Origin: Enterobacter sp. JBIWA008
Lineage (GTDB): Bacteria > Pseudomonadota > Gammaproteobacteria > Enterobacterales > Enterobacteriaceae
Assembly (NCBI RefSeq): GCF_019968765.1
Contig: NZ_CP074149.1
Location: 682,001 to 746,000 of the forward strand
Direction: 5' to 3'
DNA length: 64,000 nt
In this document: positions 51,640-58,543 of the stretch, piece by piece
How positions within the stretch are numbered: position 1 is the first letter of the stretch
Layout: the number at the start of each line of letters is the position of its first letter
Position numbers and translations under genes: made by a program
The notes under the pieces: model-generated
Database searches by the model: none
What the model saw: the letters and a program-made list of their open reading frames with translations, nothing else
Told to the model about the DNA's origin: nothing

Positions 51640-51655
51640 GGTTAATCGTTTAATC
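51640..51655 (+). promoter_or_regulatory. Candidate LacI-type operator before the cupin isomerase genes
   Basis: GGTTAATCGTTTAATC shares the pattern GGTTAnTCGnTTAAyC with two sites around the LacI-type regulator gene 6 kb away. It stands 42 bases before the isomerase start, next to a possible -10 box (TCTGATAGG). Function is inferred from similarity. Confidence 0.55.
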
Positions 51656-51697
51656 TGATAGGCTGATGTTGCTGTTCTCCTTGGGCCGGAGATGACT

Positions 51698-52252
51698 ATG
51701 AAACCAGAAATTATTCTGCCACCTCAGGTGGCATGGGCGACTGGCGCGCTCGCCAGAGGCCCGCTTGTTCGCAAGACAACCTGCCTTGCCGACCTTCCCT
51801 GCATCTTCGCTAACCGCGAGGAGTGGAAGTGTCGCGATCCCCAACAAAGCGTATACGACGTTGAGGTCCTGGAATCCCCCATGGCTGAGGGGGCGCTCTA
51901 CGTTGGCGTCACTCACCTTCATGCAGGTAAAGTTGGTGATGAGTTCTTTATGACACGCGGTCATTTTCATGAGCGCCGTGAACAGGGGGAAGTCTATTTT
52001 GGCCTGCGTGGCAGCGGCTTACTGTTGTTGCAAACGGAGGCGGGCGTTGCGCGAGTTGAGCAGGTAGTAACAGGGTCGGTACACATTATTCCTCCTTTTA
52101 CGGCGCACCGTTTGATCAACACCGGTAATGAGACGCTCTCCTCGCTGGCCGTCTGGTCAAGCGTCGCGGGGCACGACTACGCGGCGCTGGCAGAGGGTTT
52201 CGCTCTGCGAGTCTTTGCCACCGGGCAAGGTTTCGAGGTGCGTCATGTCTGA
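51698..52252 (+). CDS. Cupin-type glucose-6-phosphate isomerase-like protein
   Basis: A 184-residue cupin of the archaeal-type phosphoglucose isomerase family. The metal site GHFHERREQGEVYFGLRG gives H89, H91 and E98, with H137 in PPFTAHRL, the same pattern as the known Pyrococcus enzyme (two His, Glu, His). It would interconvert an aldose phosphate and a ketose phosphate in the cytosol. ATG 51698 is preferred over ATG 51692, because CGGAG ends directly before the latter. The stop lies eight bases inside the next isomerase gene. It probably serves the neighbouring PTS; the true substrate is unknown. Confidence 0.8.
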   Translation: MKPEIILPPQVAWATGALARGPLVRKTTCLADLPCIFANREEWKCRDPQQSVYDVEVLESPMAEGALYVGVTHLHAGKVGDEFFMTRGHFHERREQGEVYFGLRGSGLLLLQTEAGVARVEQVVTGSVHIIPPFTAHRLINTGNETLSSLAVWSSVAGHDYAALAEGFALRVFATGQGFEVRHV

Positions 52253-53015
52253 CTATGGCCTTGATATGACCATTACCCATCAGCCGCTGGGTTTTAGCTA
52301 TGGTGATGATGTCACCGGGCCGATGCCGGAAATCCGCACTCTGGATCAGATCCGCCCGTCACTGCGCGATCCTGACTGTCAGGGGCCGGATCAGGTGTAC
52401 GCTATCGCCATGGATGTCGCGCGACTGATGGATAGACCGGAGCTGGAAAAACGGATGTTGCTCTTTGGTGTGGTTACCTACGCCGCAGGTACGCTCGGCG
52501 ATGAGCCAATTCGCAGCCAGGGGCATGTCCACCGCATCAGCCAGCATAGCGGATGGTCACCACCAGAGCTTTATGAGATCTGGCAAGGTAAAGCGATTAT
52601 TTACATGCAGGAGTACGTCGAGGACGATCCCGGACGCTGTTTTGCCGTTTTAGCGGGGCCAGGATAAAAGGTGCTGGTGCCTCCGGGTTGGGGTCATGCG
52701 ACCATTTCGGCCTCGCCCGATACTCCGCTGACTTTTGGTGCCTGGTGCGATCGTGAGTACGGCTTTGAATATGACGCGGTTCGCGCGCACAAGGGGCTGG
52801 CCTGGTATCCGCTGGTTCAGGGAAAAAACATTATCTGGCAGCATAATAGCCACTATATGGCAGGGAGGTTACAGATGATCACACCGCGTCGTTACAGTGA
52901 GTTTGGTATTACGGATGCGCCTATTTATCAGCAGTTTATTGACGATCCGGCTCGGTTCCAGTTTATCTCGCGCCCGGACAGAACGGCAGAGCTGTGGCAC
53001 CATTTCCATCCATAG
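52245..53015 (+). pseudogene. Second cupin phosphosugar isomerase-like gene, interrupted by in-frame TAA
   Basis: Frame from ATG 52245 (MSDYGLDMTITH) to 52664, then TAA at 52665-52667, then the same frame resumes (KVLVPPGWGHATIS) to the stop at 53015. Read through, it is 256 codons with one internal stop. The first part carries the cupin metal motif SQGHVHR and ELYEIWQGKA. The second carries VPPGWGH with the expected last metal His, so a protein ending at TAA would lack part of the barrel. A GTG two codons after the TAA could restart translation, but no Shine-Dalgarno is clear. Pseudogene, readthrough or a sequence error remain open. Confidence 0.75.
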
Positions 53016-53046
53016 CAAAAGCCGGGGCAGAGCCCCGGCTTTTTTA
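53016..53046. terminator. Two-way terminator between the cupin and PTS units
   Basis: The stem AAGCCGGGGC/GCCCCGGCTT with a short AGA loop is followed by TTTTT, and AAAA precedes it. It serves both converging transcription units. Confidence 0.92.
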
Positions 53047-53862
53047 TCCTGCAAACACCCCGGATGCCACGCCAAGCGCGGCGAGTACCAGCAGTAAAAC
53101 CATGGCTTTGACTGGCGACACGCCGCGTTTTGCCATCAGGTACCAGGTACCTAGCACCACTATCAGTGGAAGCAGTTGCGGGAAAATACCGTCCAGCATC
53201 TGCTGCACGTGAATGTTAACGCCGTCGCGCGTGATGAACTCCAGCCCGGTACCGAGCTTCACATAGCTGGCCGCCACGCCGCCCATGACGAATACGCCCA
53301 GCAGGGAGAGCGCTTCCCGTAGCCGGGTGGATTTGCTGCTGACCAGCATCTCCACAGAGCCTGATCCCATCTGGTAGCCTTTAAGAAACAGGAACCATGA
53401 GCCCGGAATAATAATGGCCAGCCAGGCAACGGTATAAAACAGCGGGCCAAGTATGTTCCCGCCTGCCGCCAGCGCCATCCCGATGCTGAGGAGGATGGGG
53501 ATTAGCATTCCGGGGATCATCGAATCGCCGATCCCTGCTATCGGCCCCATCAGGCCCACCTTCAGAGTGTTGATGGTTTCACCATCAATCGGCTCGCCGT
53601 TGGCTTTCTTCTCTTCCAGACCCAGCGCCATACCGTTAACAATCGCGCCAATTTGCGGCTCCGTGTTGTAGAACGACGCGTGGCGACGCAGCATCTCGGT
53701 GCGTTGTGCTGCATCGGGATAGAGTTTTTTTGCCACCGGCAGCATGCTCAGGCAGAAGCCGAAGGATTCCAGCCGTTCAAAGCTCATTGAAGAGAGGTTG
53801 TGCATCATCCACGCCCGCCAGCAGCGGCGCAGATCTTTGCGGGTCAGTTTACGTTCTTCCAT
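53044..53862 (-). CDS. PTS mannose-class permease, EIID component
   Basis: A 272-residue membrane component of the mannose/fructose/sorbose PTS family. N-terminal LTRKDLRRCWRAWMMHNLSSMSFERLESFGF is the EIID signature. GLMGPIAGIGDSMIPGMLIPILLSI is a second conserved stretch. The N-terminal half is mostly cytoplasmic and hydrophobic helices follow, with the last at the C-terminus. With EIIC it forms the sugar channel. Last gene of the operon; its start shares one base with the EIIC stop. Confidence 0.93.
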   Translation of the reverse strand: MEERKLTRKDLRRCWRAWMMHNLSSMSFERLESFGFCLSMLPVAKKLYPDAAQRTEMLRRHASFYNTEPQIGAIVNGMALGLEEKKANGEPIDGETINTLKVGLMGPIAGIGDSMIPGMLIPILLSIGMALAAGGNILGPLFYTVAWLAIIIPGSWFLFLKGYQMGSGSVEMLVSSKSTRLREALSLLGVFVMGGVAASYVKLGTGLEFITRDGVNIHVQQMLDGIFPQLLPLIVVLGTWYLMAKRGVSPVKAMVLLLVLAALGVASGVFAG

Positions 53863-54659
53863 CAGAATTCATCCTCGTCGTCAGGGACAGGTGCTGAAGC
53901 CACGGCCTGCGGCGTCTCAGGTTTGTAGTTATAATGAATCAGCGCCAGCAGGGCGCCCACGATCACCAGCGCAACCATATTGAGTTTCAGGAAAACGATG
54001 CAGACGAAGCCCACCAGAAAATAGATGATCATGGTGTAGCTTTTGATGATCTGCTTAAGCAGGATGGCAATACCGACGGCAGGCAAAATACCGCCCAGCA
54101 CGTTCATGGTCGAGAGCACGATCTGCGGCAGGCTGTCCATAAAGCTGCTAATGTATTGCGCGCCAAAAAAGACGGCGATAAACGTGGGGACAAAGCGCAG
54201 CACAAAATTCATCACCTGCGGCCATATGGCGCTGTTGAGGTAGATTCCTCGCTCATCGCCATTTTCCAGCGCGACATCCGCCCGATGATTCCAGAACGAA
54301 TTGAGCACCATCATCGCATTGAAGAGAATGGTTCCGGCGATACCGATAGTTGCTGCCAGTGCGACGGCAACCTCAGGTCCTTTGCCGGAAAGGATCCCCA
54401 GCGCAATGGCCGGATAAGCCACAAAGTTTAAATCTGCGGGCATCGAGCCACCGGGGGTCACCATCGCGATATACACCGCCTGCACCGCTACGCCAATCAT
54501 AATCCCGGTTTTGATATCGCCCAGGATCAGGCCAACCAACATCCCGGAAATAAGCGGTCGGGAGATGAGATACCAACCGCCAGTCAACCCTAAAAGCCAC
54601 GGACTGCTGAGTGCACCCAGATAACACAGGAGGCCAATTAAAGACGCTTCGATAAACAT
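53862..54659 (-). CDS. PTS mannose-class permease, EIIC component
   Basis: A 265-residue polytopic inner-membrane protein with about seven hydrophobic segments, belonging to the sorbose-subfamily IIC group. Clear stretches are LVGLILGDIKTGIMIGVAVQAVYIAM and GGSMPADLNFVAYPAIALGI near residues 40-95. The C-terminal tail is acidic (PVPDDEDEF). It forms the translocation path with EIID. The gene follows EIIB by 10 bases. Confidence 0.92.
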   Translation of the reverse strand: MFIEASLIGLLCYLGALSSPWLLGLTGGWYLISRPLISGMLVGLILGDIKTGIMIGVAVQAVYIAMVTPGGSMPADLNFVAYPAIALGILSGKGPEVAVALAATIGIAGTILFNAMMVLNSFWNHRADVALENGDERGIYLNSAIWPQVMNFVLRFVPTFIAVFFGAQYISSFMDSLPQIVLSTMNVLGGILPAVGIAILLKQIIKSYTMIIYFLVGFVCIVFLKLNMVALVIVGALLALIHYNYKPETPQAVASAPVPDDEDEF

Positions 54660-54669
54660 GGTCCGCTCC

Positions 54670-55164
54670 TTATTTCAGCTTTTGTCTGGCGTCATGCCAG
54701 GTATAAAAACTGGCATCGGGAACCAGGCGGAATTCAATCGCGTGTCCCTGGACAGTTAGCCACTCGAAAGCCGCCGCTTCATCTTTCGTGACCGATTGAT
54801 TCGGGCCGATGGTGATCGTGTTAGCGCGAGCGCTCATCGGCCCCACGTTGATTTTCCCGTTGCTGTTTTTCAGGCTAATGCCTGCCTGTTCAATGCGCTG
54901 CAGCGTAAGCGGCGATTTGCCTATCACAAAATACCGCTTCTCGCTGGCAATCACTTTGGGCAGTTTTTCAATCGCCGTTGCGGTATCGAACAGCCACACT
55001 TTGGTGTCAGAGACGGCGCCTTTCATGACCGACGACAGCAGTGGATCGGCCGCAACGGCATCATCAATGGCAACGATGCCGTCACAGGGCAGCTCTTTGG
55101 CCCAGCGTGTGATGAGCTGCCCATGGATCACGCGATCGTCGATGCGAACAAAAGAAATACTCAT
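54670..55164 (-). CDS. PTS mannose-class EIIB component
   Basis: A 164-residue cytoplasmic phosphocarrier. The phosphorylation-site His is H14 in RIDDRVIHGQLITRW, the signature of EIIB in this class. GPMSARANTITIGPNQSVTKDE is typical of the later part. It transfers phosphate from EIIA to the incoming sugar. The gene is separate from EIIA, whereas in the E. coli mannose permease the two are fused. Confidence 0.92.
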   Translation of the reverse strand: MSISFVRIDDRVIHGQLITRWAKELPCDGIVAIDDAVAADPLLSSVMKGAVSDTKVWLFDTATAIEKLPKVIASEKRYFVIGKSPLTLQRIEQAGISLKNSNGKINVGPMSARANTITIGPNQSVTKDEAAAFEWLTVQGHAIEFRLVPDASFYTWHDARQKLK

Positions 55165-55174
55165 ATGCAGCTCC

Positions 55175-55603
55175 TTAAAAATCGTCTGTCGGTTCAGAAT
55201 CTATCTGTTTCGCCTGTACCAGCGTCGGCAGAGTGAGTTGGATTATTTGCGCGGCAGCATGATGAACATCGCGTGCCATCATCACCTCGTCGGTTTGCAG
55301 CAGCATCGGGAAGTTGACCCCCGCGACCACGGCGACAGGCGGCTGCGTACGCGGATTAAACGCGGCCTCGCAGGCCACGTTCCACGGCGTGCCGCTTTGC
55401 ATATCGCATAGCACCAGCACGCCATCAGCATTTATGCTTGCTGCTTCCAGCGTGGCGCAAAAGTCACGGCGGAAGCCCTCTATCCCTGCCTGTTCGGTCA
55501 GACAAACGGCATGCACGCCGGGCAGCTCGCCATAAACCATCCGGCCGCTCTCCAGCAGAGCGCTGGCAAGTGGGCCGTGGGTGGCGACAATAAAATGAAT
55601 CAT
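55175..55603 (-). CDS. PTS mannose-class EIIA component
   Basis: A 142-residue cytoplasmic protein. Phospho-acceptor His is H9 in IVATHGPLASALLES. LVLCDMQSGTPWNVA and AVVAGVNFPMLL are the other class-defining segments. It takes phosphate from HPr. The gene starts two bases after the stop of the upstream isomerase gene, and its AAGGAG Shine-Dalgarno lies in that gene's end, implying coupling. Confidence 0.92.
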   Translation of the reverse strand: MIHFIVATHGPLASALLESGRMVYGELPGVHAVCLTEQAGIEGFRRDFCATLEAASINADGVLVLCDMQSGTPWNVACEAAFNPRTQPPVAVVAGVNFPMLLQTDEVMMARDVHHAAAQIIQLTLPTLVQAKQIDSEPTDDF

Positions 55604-55605
55604 CG

Positions 55606-57348
55606 TTAACTCCTTACCCAGGCTTTGATAGTCGCCAGTGGTCGGCTGGAGGAATGGGCGGGCGGAGAAATGCGATATTCACCGACGCTTGCCGGAATGA
55701 TGAAGGTTTCGGCGTAATGGACGGTAAAAGGCGCAAACGCTCCGGTTGGGCTATCGACAATGGCTTCGTCTCCCTCCACGAGATTCAGCACATTCACACC
55801 GCCACCGGTGTGATGCAACACGGGTTCGCTAAACCAGTGACGACGGGTTTCGATAAATTCTCGCTCGTGCAGCCCCGTTCGTTCTTCGCGCCAGTAATTT
55901 CCTTCTGCGATAGGTTCAAACTGATTCACCAGATGCTGATGCACCCACTGCGTGTCGCGCTGCCAGTCGATCACCTTTTCACCGTGATCCAGGTGTACCG
56001 GGCGCGGCTGACCGTCCAGCCCAAGGCGGCCCCAGTCCCATAGTTTGAAGGTGAAGATATACGGCGTAGCGCTGATCTCCAGTACCATAGTCCCCGCGCC
56101 GGAGCAGTGCACTGTGCCTGCAGGGATCAGGAAATGGTCGTGTTTTTTGGCCGGGATTTGATTAACGAAACGGGCATCATCAAACGGTTTTTCACCGCGC
56201 CCCGCACGCCTGAGATCGTCCATCATGTCCTTAGCATCTATACCGGTTTTGGTGCCCAGATAAACAACGGCATCCGGCCTGGCGTCCAGGATGTAATAGC
56301 TCTCATCCTGCGTGTAATGCATCCCGAACTGCTGCTGGATGTACTCGGTAACGGGGTGGACCTGGAAGCTCAGGTTTTGGCCACCAATGGTATCGAGAAA
56401 GTCAAAGCGAATCGGGAACTCCGCGCCGAAACGTGCGTGAACTTTCTCACCCAGCAGAGCGCGAGGCTCAAGCAGAACCAGATCCTGAGAGGGGATCTCG
56501 ATCCGCACTGCGCCAAAACGCAGTAACAGGCTGTTTTCCTCGGGCACACAGTCAAAACACCATGCGTAATTGGGTGCAGAGGGATCGAGATCGAATTGTT
56601 GTTTCATCCACTGGCCGCCCCAGATTCCGGGGTCGAAAAAGGGGACTACGCGGAAAGGCTGCGAGGTCGTTTGTTCAAGCCCGGCACGCAGGGCCTCGCC
56701 GCTGGCCATCGCGGGCTGGTTTGCCCGGGTTGTATCCAGTAAAAAATCGGCGCGTTTGAGAAGTGGCGTTTTGTGACGATCGAAGACTCGCCATTCGATA
56801 AAAAAGGCGCGTTTGTAGCGACGAAGTATATCTTCATGCTGATTCTCTACGCCCCAGTTCCCCATCTCACCGCTGCGCATACGCTGCTGGATCTCCCATC
56901 GCGGAAGATCGGCATACACCAGCACATCACCCGGATGGACGAGCGCCGCACCGGGGCCATAAATCACAATCAGCCCTTCAGAGCACTGGCTCACCTGAGC
57001 CTGCAATGTTTCCAGACGAGTGGGATCGAAAAACTCAACGAGCTGGTGGCAGGAGAGTACGCCAAAGACGCGATCGTCGGTGAGGTTGCGTGCCAGCATT
57101 TCATGAATGGCGCGCTCATCCCGTCGCGCTTGTTCGACATTGATTGTGAGTGTCGGACGCAATTGCTGCAGCAAAACGTTCTCAAGTTCGGTCATGCGCA
57201 CGCCTGGATAGCAATCAATCACCAGTACGGTGCGGCTGCACTGTCGGATTTTTGCATCAAGGCTGCTGATAATCGGCTCCCAACCTTGCCAGGCGCTGTC
57301 GTCATAACCCTGAATCGCCACCGTGGGGAATTTGTCGTAAGTGGTCAT
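55606..57348 (-). CDS. Class I mannose-6-phosphate isomerase-like protein with N-terminal kinase-like domain
   Basis: A 580-residue two-part protein. Residues about 240-580 are a cupin type I phosphomannose isomerase: GIWGGQW at 241-247, metal ligands Q329 and H331 (SFQVHP), E349 (QDESYYIL), H414 (PAGTVHCSG) and R441 in DWGRLG. Residues 1-225 resemble a uridine-kinase or P-loop fold (LIVIYGPGAALVHPGDVLVYADL, WRVFDRHK), but no GxxGxGK(S/T) loop is present where expected after TVAIQGYD. First gene of the PTS operon; the Shine-Dalgarno GGAGG is near the start and a candidate operator is just upstream. Probably isomerises the phosphorylated PTS product; the N-terminal role is unknown. Confidence 0.82.
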   Translation of the reverse strand: MTTYDKFPTVAIQGYDDSAWQGWEPIISSLDAKIRQCSRTVLVIDCYPGVRMTELENVLLQQLRPTLTINVEQARRDERAIHEMLARNLTDDRVFGVLSCHQLVEFFDPTRLETLQAQVSQCSEGLIVIYGPGAALVHPGDVLVYADLPRWEIQQRMRSGEMGNWGVENQHEDILRRYKRAFFIEWRVFDRHKTPLLKRADFLLDTTRANQPAMASGEALRAGLEQTTSQPFRVVPFFDPGIWGGQWMKQQFDLDPSAPNYAWCFDCVPEENSLLLRFGAVRIEIPSQDLVLLEPRALLGEKVHARFGAEFPIRFDFLDTIGGQNLSFQVHPVTEYIQQQFGMHYTQDESYYILDARPDAVVYLGTKTGIDAKDMMDDLRRAGRGEKPFDDARFVNQIPAKKHDHFLIPAGTVHCSGAGTMVLEISATPYIFTFKLWDWGRLGLDGQPRPVHLDHGEKVIDWQRDTQWVHQHLVNQFEPIAEGNYWREERTGLHEREFIETRRHWFSEPVLHHTGGGVNVLNLVEGDEAIVDSPTGAFAPFTVHYAETFIIPASVGEYRISPPAHSSSRPLATIKAWVRS

Positions 57349-57373
57349 TGTATCCTCCGTATTCTTTATTTAA

Positions 57374-57389
57374 GGTTATTCGATTAACC
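57374..57389 (-). promoter_or_regulatory. Candidate operator upstream of the isomerase-PTS operon
   Basis: GGTTATTCGATTAACC is a near-perfect palindrome with central TCGA, 26 bases before the isomerase start. It shares its pattern with 57496-57511 and 51640-51655, and has the central CG usual for LacI-family operators. Confidence 0.65.
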
Positions 57390-57404
57390 GAATTTGAGAA
57401 GAGT

Positions 57405-57421
57405 GGTTAACGCGATTAACC
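57405..57421. promoter_or_regulatory. Third, variant operator-like repeat
   Basis: GGTTAACGCGATTAACC has the same GGTTAA and TTAACC arms with one extra central base. It lies 15 bases from the first site, so it could be a weaker second site or a spacing variant. Confidence 0.4.
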
Positions 57422-57460
57422 CGCCATAAATACGAATGTAATCCTGATTGGTAGCCGTAA

Positions 57461-57476
57461 TGTGAAGAGACTCACA
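57461..57476. promoter_or_regulatory. CRP site in the divergent promoter region
   Basis: TGTGAAGAGACTCACA matches the CRP core TGTGA-N6-TCACA without mismatch. It lies near the middle of the 187-base region between the PTS operon and the LacI-type gene and predicts cAMP-dependent control of one or both. Confidence 0.75.
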
Positions 57477-57495
57477 GGGAAAAATGCAAAAAATA

Positions 57496-57511
57496 GGTTA
57501 TTCGATTAATC
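57496..57511 (+). promoter_or_regulatory. Candidate operator before the LacI-type regulator gene
   Basis: GGTTATTCGATTAATC differs from the site at 57374 in one base and stands 25 bases before ATG 57536, where a bound repressor would block its own promoter. Confidence 0.65.
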
Positions 57512-57535
57512 TATAGTGGTGACTAAGGAGACAAC

Positions 57536-58543
57536 ATGACGGGAATTACTCTGGCCGATGTCGCGAAACGCGCCGGCGTGTCAACGGCGACGGTCTCTAT
57601 GGTGCTTTGCAACAAAGGCCGTATTTCGCAAAGCACGCGTGAACGCGTGCTCAGGGCGCTGGACGAGTCGGGCTATGTCTACAACCAGACGGCGGCCAAT
57701 TTGCGCAACCGCAGCAGTAACCAGGTGGGGTTGCTGTTGCATGACATCACCAACCCTTTCTACGGCGAGATGACCGCCGGCTTAAGCCATGAGATGGAGC
57801 GCCATGAGCTGATGCTGTTTTTGGCAAATAGCGAAGAATCCGCCGAGCGACAGCAAAAGTTTGTTGATTCGCTGATGCGTAACAACGTGGGTGGCATGGT
57901 GCTCTGTGCCGCCCGCGAAACGCCACAATCTTTTTTTGATAGCCTGAAGCGACGCAATATTCCGGCGATTATGGTAGTACGACCGCTTAGCGATCCGGGG
58001 TTCGATTTTGTTGGAACAGATAACTTTCTTGGCACCCAAATGGCGACCGAACATCTTTTAAAAATGGGACACCGGCAGATCGCATTTATCGGCGGTAGCC
58101 AGAATTCGGGGTCACGGGCGCAGCGTATTGGCGGATTTACCAGTAAACTTCTGGAATACGGTATTACGCCGAATGCGGCCTGGATTGTGACTTCACAGGC
58201 CAGCCAAAGCGACGGTGCGCGGGTGGCAGAGAGTTTGCTGACCGATAATCCGGAAATCACCGCCGCGATTTGTTATCAGGATATTGTGGCCCTCGGGGTT
58301 ATGCAGTGTTTACGCAAATTGAACCGGGAACCCGGACGTGATTTTGCCCTGGTGGGATTCGATGACATCACCGAAGCGGCGCTGGTTCAGCCTGCACTAA
58401 CGACGGTATCTGTCGCCGCGAAAGAGATTGGGCGCAAGGCAGGAGAGTTGCTGTATAGCCGCATGCAAGGAAATGATGAACCGGCAAAACGGATTATCCT
58501 TCCCCCCGCCCTCGTAGTGCGGGAATCCTGCGGTTTTCGCTGA
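57536..58543 (+). CDS. LacI/MalI-type transcriptional regulator
   Basis: A 335-residue regulator. The LacI helix-turn-helix ITLADVAKRAGVSTATVSMVL occupies residues 4-24, with hinge helix YNQTAANLRNRSSN. The periplasmic-binding-like effector domain runs from about residue 62 (VGLLLHDITNPFYGEMTAGL, AICYQDIVALG, LVGFDDITEA). It resembles MalI more than LacI. It is divergent from the isomerase-PTS operon, with operator-like sites before both. It probably represses the locus until a sugar phosphate appears; the effector is unknown. The Shine-Dalgarno is AAGGAG. Confidence 0.9.
   Translation: MTGITLADVAKRAGVSTATVSMVLCNKGRISQSTRERVLRALDESGYVYNQTAANLRNRSSNQVGLLLHDITNPFYGEMTAGLSHEMERHELMLFLANSEESAERQQKFVDSLMRNNVGGMVLCAARETPQSFFDSLKRRNIPAIMVVRPLSDPGFDFVGTDNFLGTQMATEHLLKMGHRQIAFIGGSQNSGSRAQRIGGFTSKLLEYGITPNAAWIVTSQASQSDGARVAESLLTDNPEITAAICYQDIVALGVMQCLRKLNREPGRDFALVGFDDITEAALVQPALTTVSVAAKEIGRKAGELLYSRMQGNDEPAKRIILPPALVVRESCGFR

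Follow-up and report, generated by a model that had tools for sequence, protein, structure and literature searches.

The closest described counterparts of the locus reported here are the mannose-family phosphotransferase systems (PTS) of the ManXYZ, Aga and Sor types, the class I phosphomannose isomerases (PMI) such as ManA and the Bacillus subtilis enzyme 1qwr, and the cupin-type phosphoglucose isomerases (PGI) of archaea. In Enterobacter sp. JBIWA008, from which a window of 64,000 nt (the whole stretch of DNA analysed) was taken, relatives of all three stand together in one set of eight genes: a LacI-type regulator gene, EIIA to EIID of a mannose-family PTS, a 580-residue PMI-like fusion that we call PMI580, and the cupin isomerase genes cPGI1 and cPGI2. 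Like known mannose-family systems, the PTS has EIIA-man, EIIB-sor, EIIC-sor and EIID-aga components, all exceeding curated Pfam cut-offs; unlike them, it is partnered with three isomerase genes. Other sugar loci share parts of this set. Neither the MngA PTS nor the MngB GH38 enzyme of the mannosylglycerate system is among the nine locus products scanned in the window; MngA/MngB-like genes accompany the related loci L036, L037, L038 and L053 ("L" numbers denote fetched loci and "G" numbers genomes of a relatives set), and the three MngB-like proteins scanned score 634-672 bits, short of the 1138 bits set for the equivalog. Glucoselysine and fructoselysine PTS loci presumably carry a SIS-domain deglycase beside the PTS, and no SIS domain was found in the same nine products. 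The alpha-mannan/N-glycan locus BT3853-BT3862 of Bacteroides thetaiotaomicron contains GH92, GH38, ROK and MFS genes (PMC4071793), all of which also surround PMI580 in Parabacteroides; that paper's text, with which rather than with the locus itself the comparison was made, names no phosphomannose isomerase, mannose-6-phosphate or cupin. In line with the initial annotation of the window, which did not recognise the set as a described pathway, we found none in the open-licence literature, a search outside which most subscription journals lie.

We tentatively favour, at a little under an even chance, the reading of these genes as a hexose catabolic locus under LacI-type control, through which mannose-6-phosphate and a second hexose-6-phosphate (glucose-6-phosphate or another) would be funnelled into fructose-6-phosphate. 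Gene content, predicted folds, conservation of metal ligands, palindromes common to both operons and a conserved linkage of PMI580 to cPGI2 are direct observations. The mannose-family PTS would import a hexose or a hexose mixture and phosphorylate it at C6; PMI580 would isomerise mannose-6-phosphate to fructose-6-phosphate; cPGI1 and cPGI2 would feed the same pool by isomerising a second hexose-6-phosphate, either that of glucose or a related one; and the LacI-type protein, acting at three palindromes, would keep both operons repressed in the absence of its effector.

The locus consists of two convergent operons and a divergent regulator gene between ispH and dapB, a position occupied by rihC in K-12 MG1655. 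The genes cPGI1 and cPGI2 lie on the plus strand, PMI580, EIIA, EIIB, EIIC and EIID follow one another on the minus strand (57348 down to 53044), and the lacI-type gene is again on the plus strand. Gene content, order and coordinates had been given correctly before, with reading frames and Pfam matches agreeing, and the ispH/dapB flanks and the rihC position in MG1655 were likewise right. Pfam cut-offs were exceeded for EIID, EIIC, EIIB, EIIA, LacI and the cupin GPI family. The features are:

51640..51655, unstranded: LacI-type operator palindrome upstream of cPGI1, with 1 mismatch to GRTTAATCGATTAAYC
51692..52252, plus strand: cPGI1, cupin glucose-6-phosphate-isomerase-like, 186 aa (PF06560 72.7 bits, cut-off 20.7)
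52245..53015, plus strand: cPGI2, second cupin isomerase gene, with an in-frame TAA at 52665-52667 (PF06560 matched by both pieces)
53018..53045, unstranded: terminator-like hairpin and T run between the convergent operons, spotted by eye
53044..53862, minus strand: EIID, mannose-family PTS, 272 aa (PF03613 293.8 bits)
53862..54659, minus strand: EIIC, mannose-family PTS, 265 aa (PF03609 223.8 bits)
54670..55164, minus strand: EIIB, mannose-family PTS, 164 aa (PF03830 122.4 bits)
55175..55603, minus strand: EIIA, mannose-family PTS, 142 aa (PF03610 65.9 bits)
55606..57348, minus strand: PMI580, with an N-domain of kinase fold (residues ~1-226) and a C-domain of class I PMI fold (229-580)
57374..57389, unstranded: LacI-type operator upstream of PMI580, from the palindrome scan
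57496..57511, unstranded: LacI-type operator upstream of the lacI-type gene, from the palindrome scan
57536..58543, plus strand: LacI/MalI-type regulator, 335 aa (NF007449 MalI subfamily 319.2 bits, cut-off 310; LacI and Peripla_BP domains)

The reading frames of cPGI1 and cPGI2 overlap at 52245-52252. No PTS member of known substrate could be named: EIIA to EIID match NCBIfam PTS models, but none of the four reaches a cut-off there. Among the PMI580 relatives listed, the nearest named ones come from Enterobacter asburiae, at 99% identity, and from E. adelaidei, at 97%, and the host genome is Enterobacter-like. It has four EIIA-man matches, the locus copy and three more at G000:C1:2876885, 4240334 and 847551.

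The two operons are tied together by a 16-base palindrome that was noticed in the window by eye and whose occurrence was afterwards scored across L027-L060 and L068. Upstream of cPGI1 it recurs at 14 or more matches of 16 in 24 of 26 sequences including the window, without a shuffle control, the exceptions being L054 and L060. The gap between the LacI gene and PMI580 holds at least one palindrome at 13/16 or better in 34 of 35 sequences, again counting the window and without a shuffle control; in the exception, L036, other genes stand ahead of PMI580. Across the 5.08-Mb genome, a scan allowing up to two mismatches returned three sites, all in the locus and with one mismatch each, while the same pattern reversed, as a control, matched twice on each strand, so that the genome background is not zero. 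As judged from sequence, there is good evidence that the cPGI operon and the PTS/PMI580 operon would share one regulon. The regulon was also tried as a clue to the substrate and set aside, as zero operator sites outside the locus meant that no extra gene was gained.

PMI580 and cPGI2 also occur together in relatives. Among 99 genomes, 60 of the window's genus and 39 others of its order, full-length PMI580 and full-length cPGI2 were found in the identical 21, on the same contig and within ~5 kb of each other; all 21 belong to the window's genus, and none of the 39 other genomes is positive. A 22nd PMI580 match (G070) is weak and spans 124 residues, G034 holds a cPGI2 remnant of 103 residues without PMI580, and G001 and G006 each have one additional weak cPGI2 match. 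For cPGI1, linkage was judged from neighbourhoods only. Among the best 80 of 586 PMI580 relatives, taken as species-level loci, cPGI2 is present in 33 and cPGI1 in 38. The 28 Enterobacterales loci (L027-L052, L060 and L068) have the PTS and a LacI gene without exception and both cupins in 23; the five without both (L034, L040, L046, L047 and L052, from Pantoea, Mixta and Sodalis) have kept the PTS and PMI580. L056, a metagenome bin titled Pluralibacter, was kept out of these 28: its PMI580 groups with Aeromonas, GH38 is nearby and a mannose-family PTS is not. In 46 genomes having a PMI580 locus without nearby cPGI2, the rest of the genome yielded no full-length copy either, the search returning one 80-residue fragment and three weak matches. 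Escherichia coli gave no near match in 5,426 complete genomes; one locus, L039, nevertheless lies in a record titled Escherichia coli, which may be misnamed.

These counts, with the LacI-type palindrome before both operons and the same 21 of 99 genomes for PMI580 and cPGI2, support the earlier proposal in so far as the genes appear to form one regulon and are co-conserved. They do not uphold the idea of eight genes as one unit with the PTS at its centre: PMI580 and the PTS occur without cupins in five loci, and PMI580 and cupins occur in four phyla without EIID in the stretches fetched. Independent occurrence of cupin and PTS genes, which the initial annotation had named as evidence against its proposal, is thus seen in part, in the cupin-less Enterobacterales loci and in the EIID-less loci of other phyla.

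Nine loci combine PMI580 with cPGI2 and gave no EIID match in the fetched stretch (L063, L064, L070, L082, L087, L088, L091, L093 and L094); they belong to Spirochaetota, Bacillota, Bacteroidota, Acidobacteriota and one unclassified bacterium. A weak match to EIIB lies ~8 kb off in L094, and other PTS-like genes were seen by eye in L091 and L094. When Bacteroidota genomes were chosen by cPGI2, with up to six candidates scored per genome, 4 of 395 were positive; PMI580 adjoins cPGI2 in two of these and is separated from it by one gene in the other two, and the four loci contain a sugar porter (4/4), a ROK kinase (3/4) and cPGI1 (2/4). Plasmid records yielded two further close cPGI2 copies, one in Persicobacter with PMI580 adjacent and one in Parabacteroides distasonis (L165), where cPGI1-ROK-cPGI2-MFS stand with a GH2 gene, the PMI580 of this strain being on a separate record together with GH92 and GH38. 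Counting the nine loci, the four from Bacteroidota and the two from plasmid records, cPGI2 occurs in 15 loci that do not have this PTS, and 8 of them have a ROK match nearby. Because PMI580 and cPGI2 recur near each other in other phyla without this PTS, the isomerase set, and not the PTS, is the core. A wider claim, that a hexose-6-phosphate pathway spans phyla in which a pseudokinase-PMI fusion and two specialised cupins convert a sugar outside the range of Pgi and ManA, fed by the PTS or often by a ROK kinase, is possible though doubtful.

Among 369 genomes of the window's class, the window's own genome alone has cPGI2; among 398 Bacillota genomes one has a close copy, adjoining a PMI580 relative (34% identity) and a mannose-family PTS. 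The possibility that every cupin-PGI relative is a module member was ruled out, since 79 of 80 positive Bacillota genomes have only distant relatives (best match ~36-149 bits); none of nine fetched Bacillota regions with such distant relatives contained PMI580.

Some records in this sample deserve separate mention. The record of L165, named as a P. distasonis plasmid, carries uvrA, pyk and xerD, and L165 and L168 may be chromosome fragments deposited as plasmids. An uncharacterised family of ~680-870 aa lies near PMI580/cPGI1 modules (L063:3194-7272, with two copies in L063, and L076:12117-14714); the single member scanned had no Pfam match. On the Salmonella plasmid pST1030-1B (L167:6261-9996), which is typed conjugative and bears resistance genes, four genes follow one another: one annotated as glucose PTS IIBC, one for a cupin isomerase distantly related to cPGI2 (27.5%), hxlB and hxlA. 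They may encode a route from hexose-6-phosphate to ribulose-5-phosphate and formaldehyde.

PMI580 departs from described class I PMIs in both of its halves. Its one Pfam match, to PMI_typeI_cat, is sub-threshold; the NCBIfam search named no family for PMI580, cPGI1 or cPGI2; and a TIGR00218 search of the genome returned ManA only, leaving PMI580 unmatched. A protein search gave at least 7999 scored relatives, not necessarily all of PMI580 kind. We assign its PMI identity from the match to B. subtilis PMI 1qwr together with the predicted structure, in which the C-domain has a class I PMI fold. Structure matches of the whole model covered mainly residues 220-580, and the N-domain, folded alone, was then predicted to have a PRK/uridine-kinase/PanK fold. 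This added kinase-fold domain is without a P-loop motif: in 38 rows, no Walker A GxxxxGK[ST] follows the first strand, where a CYPGV-type stretch stands instead. The PMI metal ligands Gln, His, Glu and His are present as Q329, H331, E349 and H414, invariant in the PMI580 alignment (A1), the mapping of E349 being based on three short PMIs. Lys86 of the Salmonella enzyme, which we take to be the probable catalytic base of class I PMIs, is by contrast replaced: the Salmonella/Enterobacter Lys86 position is Lys in four of four compared PMIs and Asp316 in PMI580, all 59 sequences having Asp there. In the GKTE motif Gln347 likewise takes the place of Lys, and relative to the three short PMIs the TYR Arg is Lys. 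Of these mappings, Lys86 to Asp316 is the firm one; Lys132 and Glu134 were placed through the short PMIs, the ManA alignment being unhelpful, and Salmonella Arg274 maps ambiguously, to Lys435 by the short PMIs but to Arg441 by alignment with Enterobacter ManA. Since both the Lys86 position and the GKTE Lys are replaced, the standard PMI mechanism cannot be assumed for PMI580.

The two cupin subfamilies both exceed the PF06560 cut-off and keep the metal ligands H, H, E and H in the GHxH...E...H pattern of the archaeal enzymes. cPGI1 stands near archaeal PGIs (T. litoralis PGI 1j3p, E 1.8e-33), and its alignment (A3) has 22 invariant columns, the metal ligands among them. The active-site set of solved cupin PGIs we take to be T71, T85, Y99, Y133, Y152, H158 and Y160. 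By this numbering, cPGI1 retains T85, Y99, H158 and Y160 in 20/20 sequences and T71 in 13/20, varies at Y133, and carries Trp where the solved enzymes have Tyr (Y152) in 18/20. cPGI2 is a separate subfamily with a longer chain, 256-258 aa in relatives, in which Ser, Cys and Phe replace T85, Y152 and H158, respectively, throughout (18/18); equally constant are its motifs SQGH, in place of T-K-GH, and WC..GFxY, in place of Y...GHDY (dots variable).

In this genome cPGI2 is interrupted. Three isomerase genes of two types are present, as the initial annotation had it, but the in-frame TAA at 52665-52667, which it missed, leaves two intact and one broken. The stop position is open in 34 aligned relative copies from 33 loci, and among the 21 full-length copies of the relatives set this one alone has an internal stop, the other 20 being open. 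The stop is either a sequencing error or a recent loss, and the cPGI2 step has probably been lost in this genome.

Neighbouring genes offer clues to the substrates. PMI580 without cupins stands in several loci whose make-up points to mannose, in Spirosoma (SusC/D-GH76-GH92-GH76-ROK-PMI580), Parabacteroides (PMI580-ROK-GH92-MFS-GH38) and Hymenobacter tibetensis (PMI580-DeoR-MFS-GH92), and GH38 or MngA/MngB-like genes accompany it in Aeromonas, Photobacterium and some Enterobacter-like loci; of the MngA/MngB-like genes, those of L036, L037 and L038 are next to or within the locus and those of L053 close to PMI580. Other arrangements, which give no hint of mannose, are ROK-PMI580-MFS in Hymenobacter DG25B, PMI580-AGE-ROK-ABC in Deinococcus, and, in Listeria, GntR and PMI580 adjoining a transposase. 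Because PMI580 alone is so often found in alpha-mannoside loci, its branch is most likely the conversion of mannose-6-phosphate to fructose-6-phosphate. Glycosidase neighbours were sought by tblastn with few query proteins, and others may be missed. In favour of a second substrate, with Enterobacterales excluded, an alpha-mannosidase (GH38, GH92 or GH76) is near 1 of 23 cupin loci versus 26 of 41 without cupins (Fisher p 2.8e-6), a contrast that is uncorrected for phylogeny and in which one of the 23 (L165) has no PMI580. Cupin and cupin-less loci are interleaved on the PMI580 tree (77 rows, quick method, after 13 near-duplicate Enterobacterales rows were dropped and L080, which has a stop, and L166 were left out; L154 has a very long branch): the cupin label changes 17 times, nine of them forced by well-supported branches, and Hymenobacter L082, with cupins, is sister to L170, with GH92. 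One PMI580 activity therefore probably serves both kinds of locus, the cupins adding a second entry. Glycosidases near cupin-type loci are mixed, including GH2 (beta-mannosidase-like and other types), GH13 and others guessed by eye; glucose from mixed hemicelluloses would fit as the second substrate. Of the suggestion of "an uncommon aldose or a mixture", the uncommon aldose gives way to mannose, which is better supported for the PMI580 branch, and the mixture is the form we prefer.

Some of these neighbourhoods have further features. AGE-family epimerase/isomerase genes lie near PMI580 at L054:14992-16113, L057:11897-13057 and L172:11740-12897, and in L054 and L057, which are without cPGI2, the AGE-family gene is possibly a replacement. 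In L036 (6383-11728), two genes separate the LacI gene from PMI580 and form a single run with the mannose-family PTS: one is MngA-like but truncated (314 aa), lacking IIB and part of IIC by profile match, and the other is a GH38 gene of MngB-like type.

Besides the phylogenetic limit of the alpha-mannosidase contrast, several observations weigh against a mannose branch joined by a second hexose. The replaced lysines of PMI580 and the three invariant substitutions of cPGI2 are among them; some PMI580 loci, for example Listeria L169 and Hymenobacter L173, are without any mannosidase; three Enterobacterales loci, among the 28 outside the contrast table, have both cupins and GH38 (L036, L037 and L038); and the tree shows clustering of the cupin label as well as interleaving, with 17 changes against a shuffled mean of 24.8. 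Moreover, the host genome encodes canonical ManA and Pgi, so that plain isomerisation of mannose-6-phosphate and glucose-6-phosphate would be redundant, and the module would therefore be a dedicated set or act on something else. An alternative, which we consider rather unlikely, is an uncommon hexose handled by three isomerases in sequence: after the PTS or a ROK kinase, cPGI2, cPGI1 and PMI580 would move the carbonyl or invert a configuration until fructose-6-phosphate is reached. Close cPGI2 copies are almost always near PMI580 (the exceptions being the G034 remnant and Parabacteroides L165), PMI580 is often without cPGI2, as expected of a last step, both proteins deviate from characterised active sites at invariant positions, and a ManA-type gene adjoins the module in Priestia L064 and Clostridiaceae L083. 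Yet known chemistry offers no simple double aldose-ketose route into mannose-6-phosphate except via fructose-6-phosphate, several PMI580-only loci appear mannose-specific, and the five Pantoea, Mixta and Sodalis genomes that retain the PTS and PMI580 have zero cPGI2 matches genome-wide, in assemblies of unstated completeness.

It is improbable that the two cupins assemble into a single hetero-oligomeric enzyme, or act as a hexose-6-phosphate mutarotase or helper for PMI580, leaving one substrate and effectively one isomerisation. The overlap of their genes in the window is in keeping with this, as are Vibrio L054, which is without cPGI2 and has an AGE-family gene after cPGI1 and a YeaD-like mutarotase gene near, and Aeromonas L057, also without cPGI2, whose AGE-family gene follows the PTS; but of 92 loci, 6 have only cPGI1 of the pair and 4 have only cPGI2. 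That the cupin genes are chance neighbours of the PTS operon is close to refuted: they are convergent to it and absent from 5 of the 28 Enterobacterales loci, whereas the palindrome common to both operons, the co-occurrence in 21 of 21 genomes and the proximity of cupin genes to PMI580 in PTS-less loci of other phyla all speak against chance.

Whichever substrates are involved, public annotation describes these proteins as generic mannose-6-phosphate and glucose-6-phosphate isomerases, which masks a conserved module. A new substrate, if that is what the specialised active sites reflect, would mean that pathway maps lack a catabolic route shared by distant phyla. Should mannose and glucose phosphates prove to be the only substrates, PMI580 would represent a second PMI lineage, with an altered key residue and a conserved kinase-fold domain.

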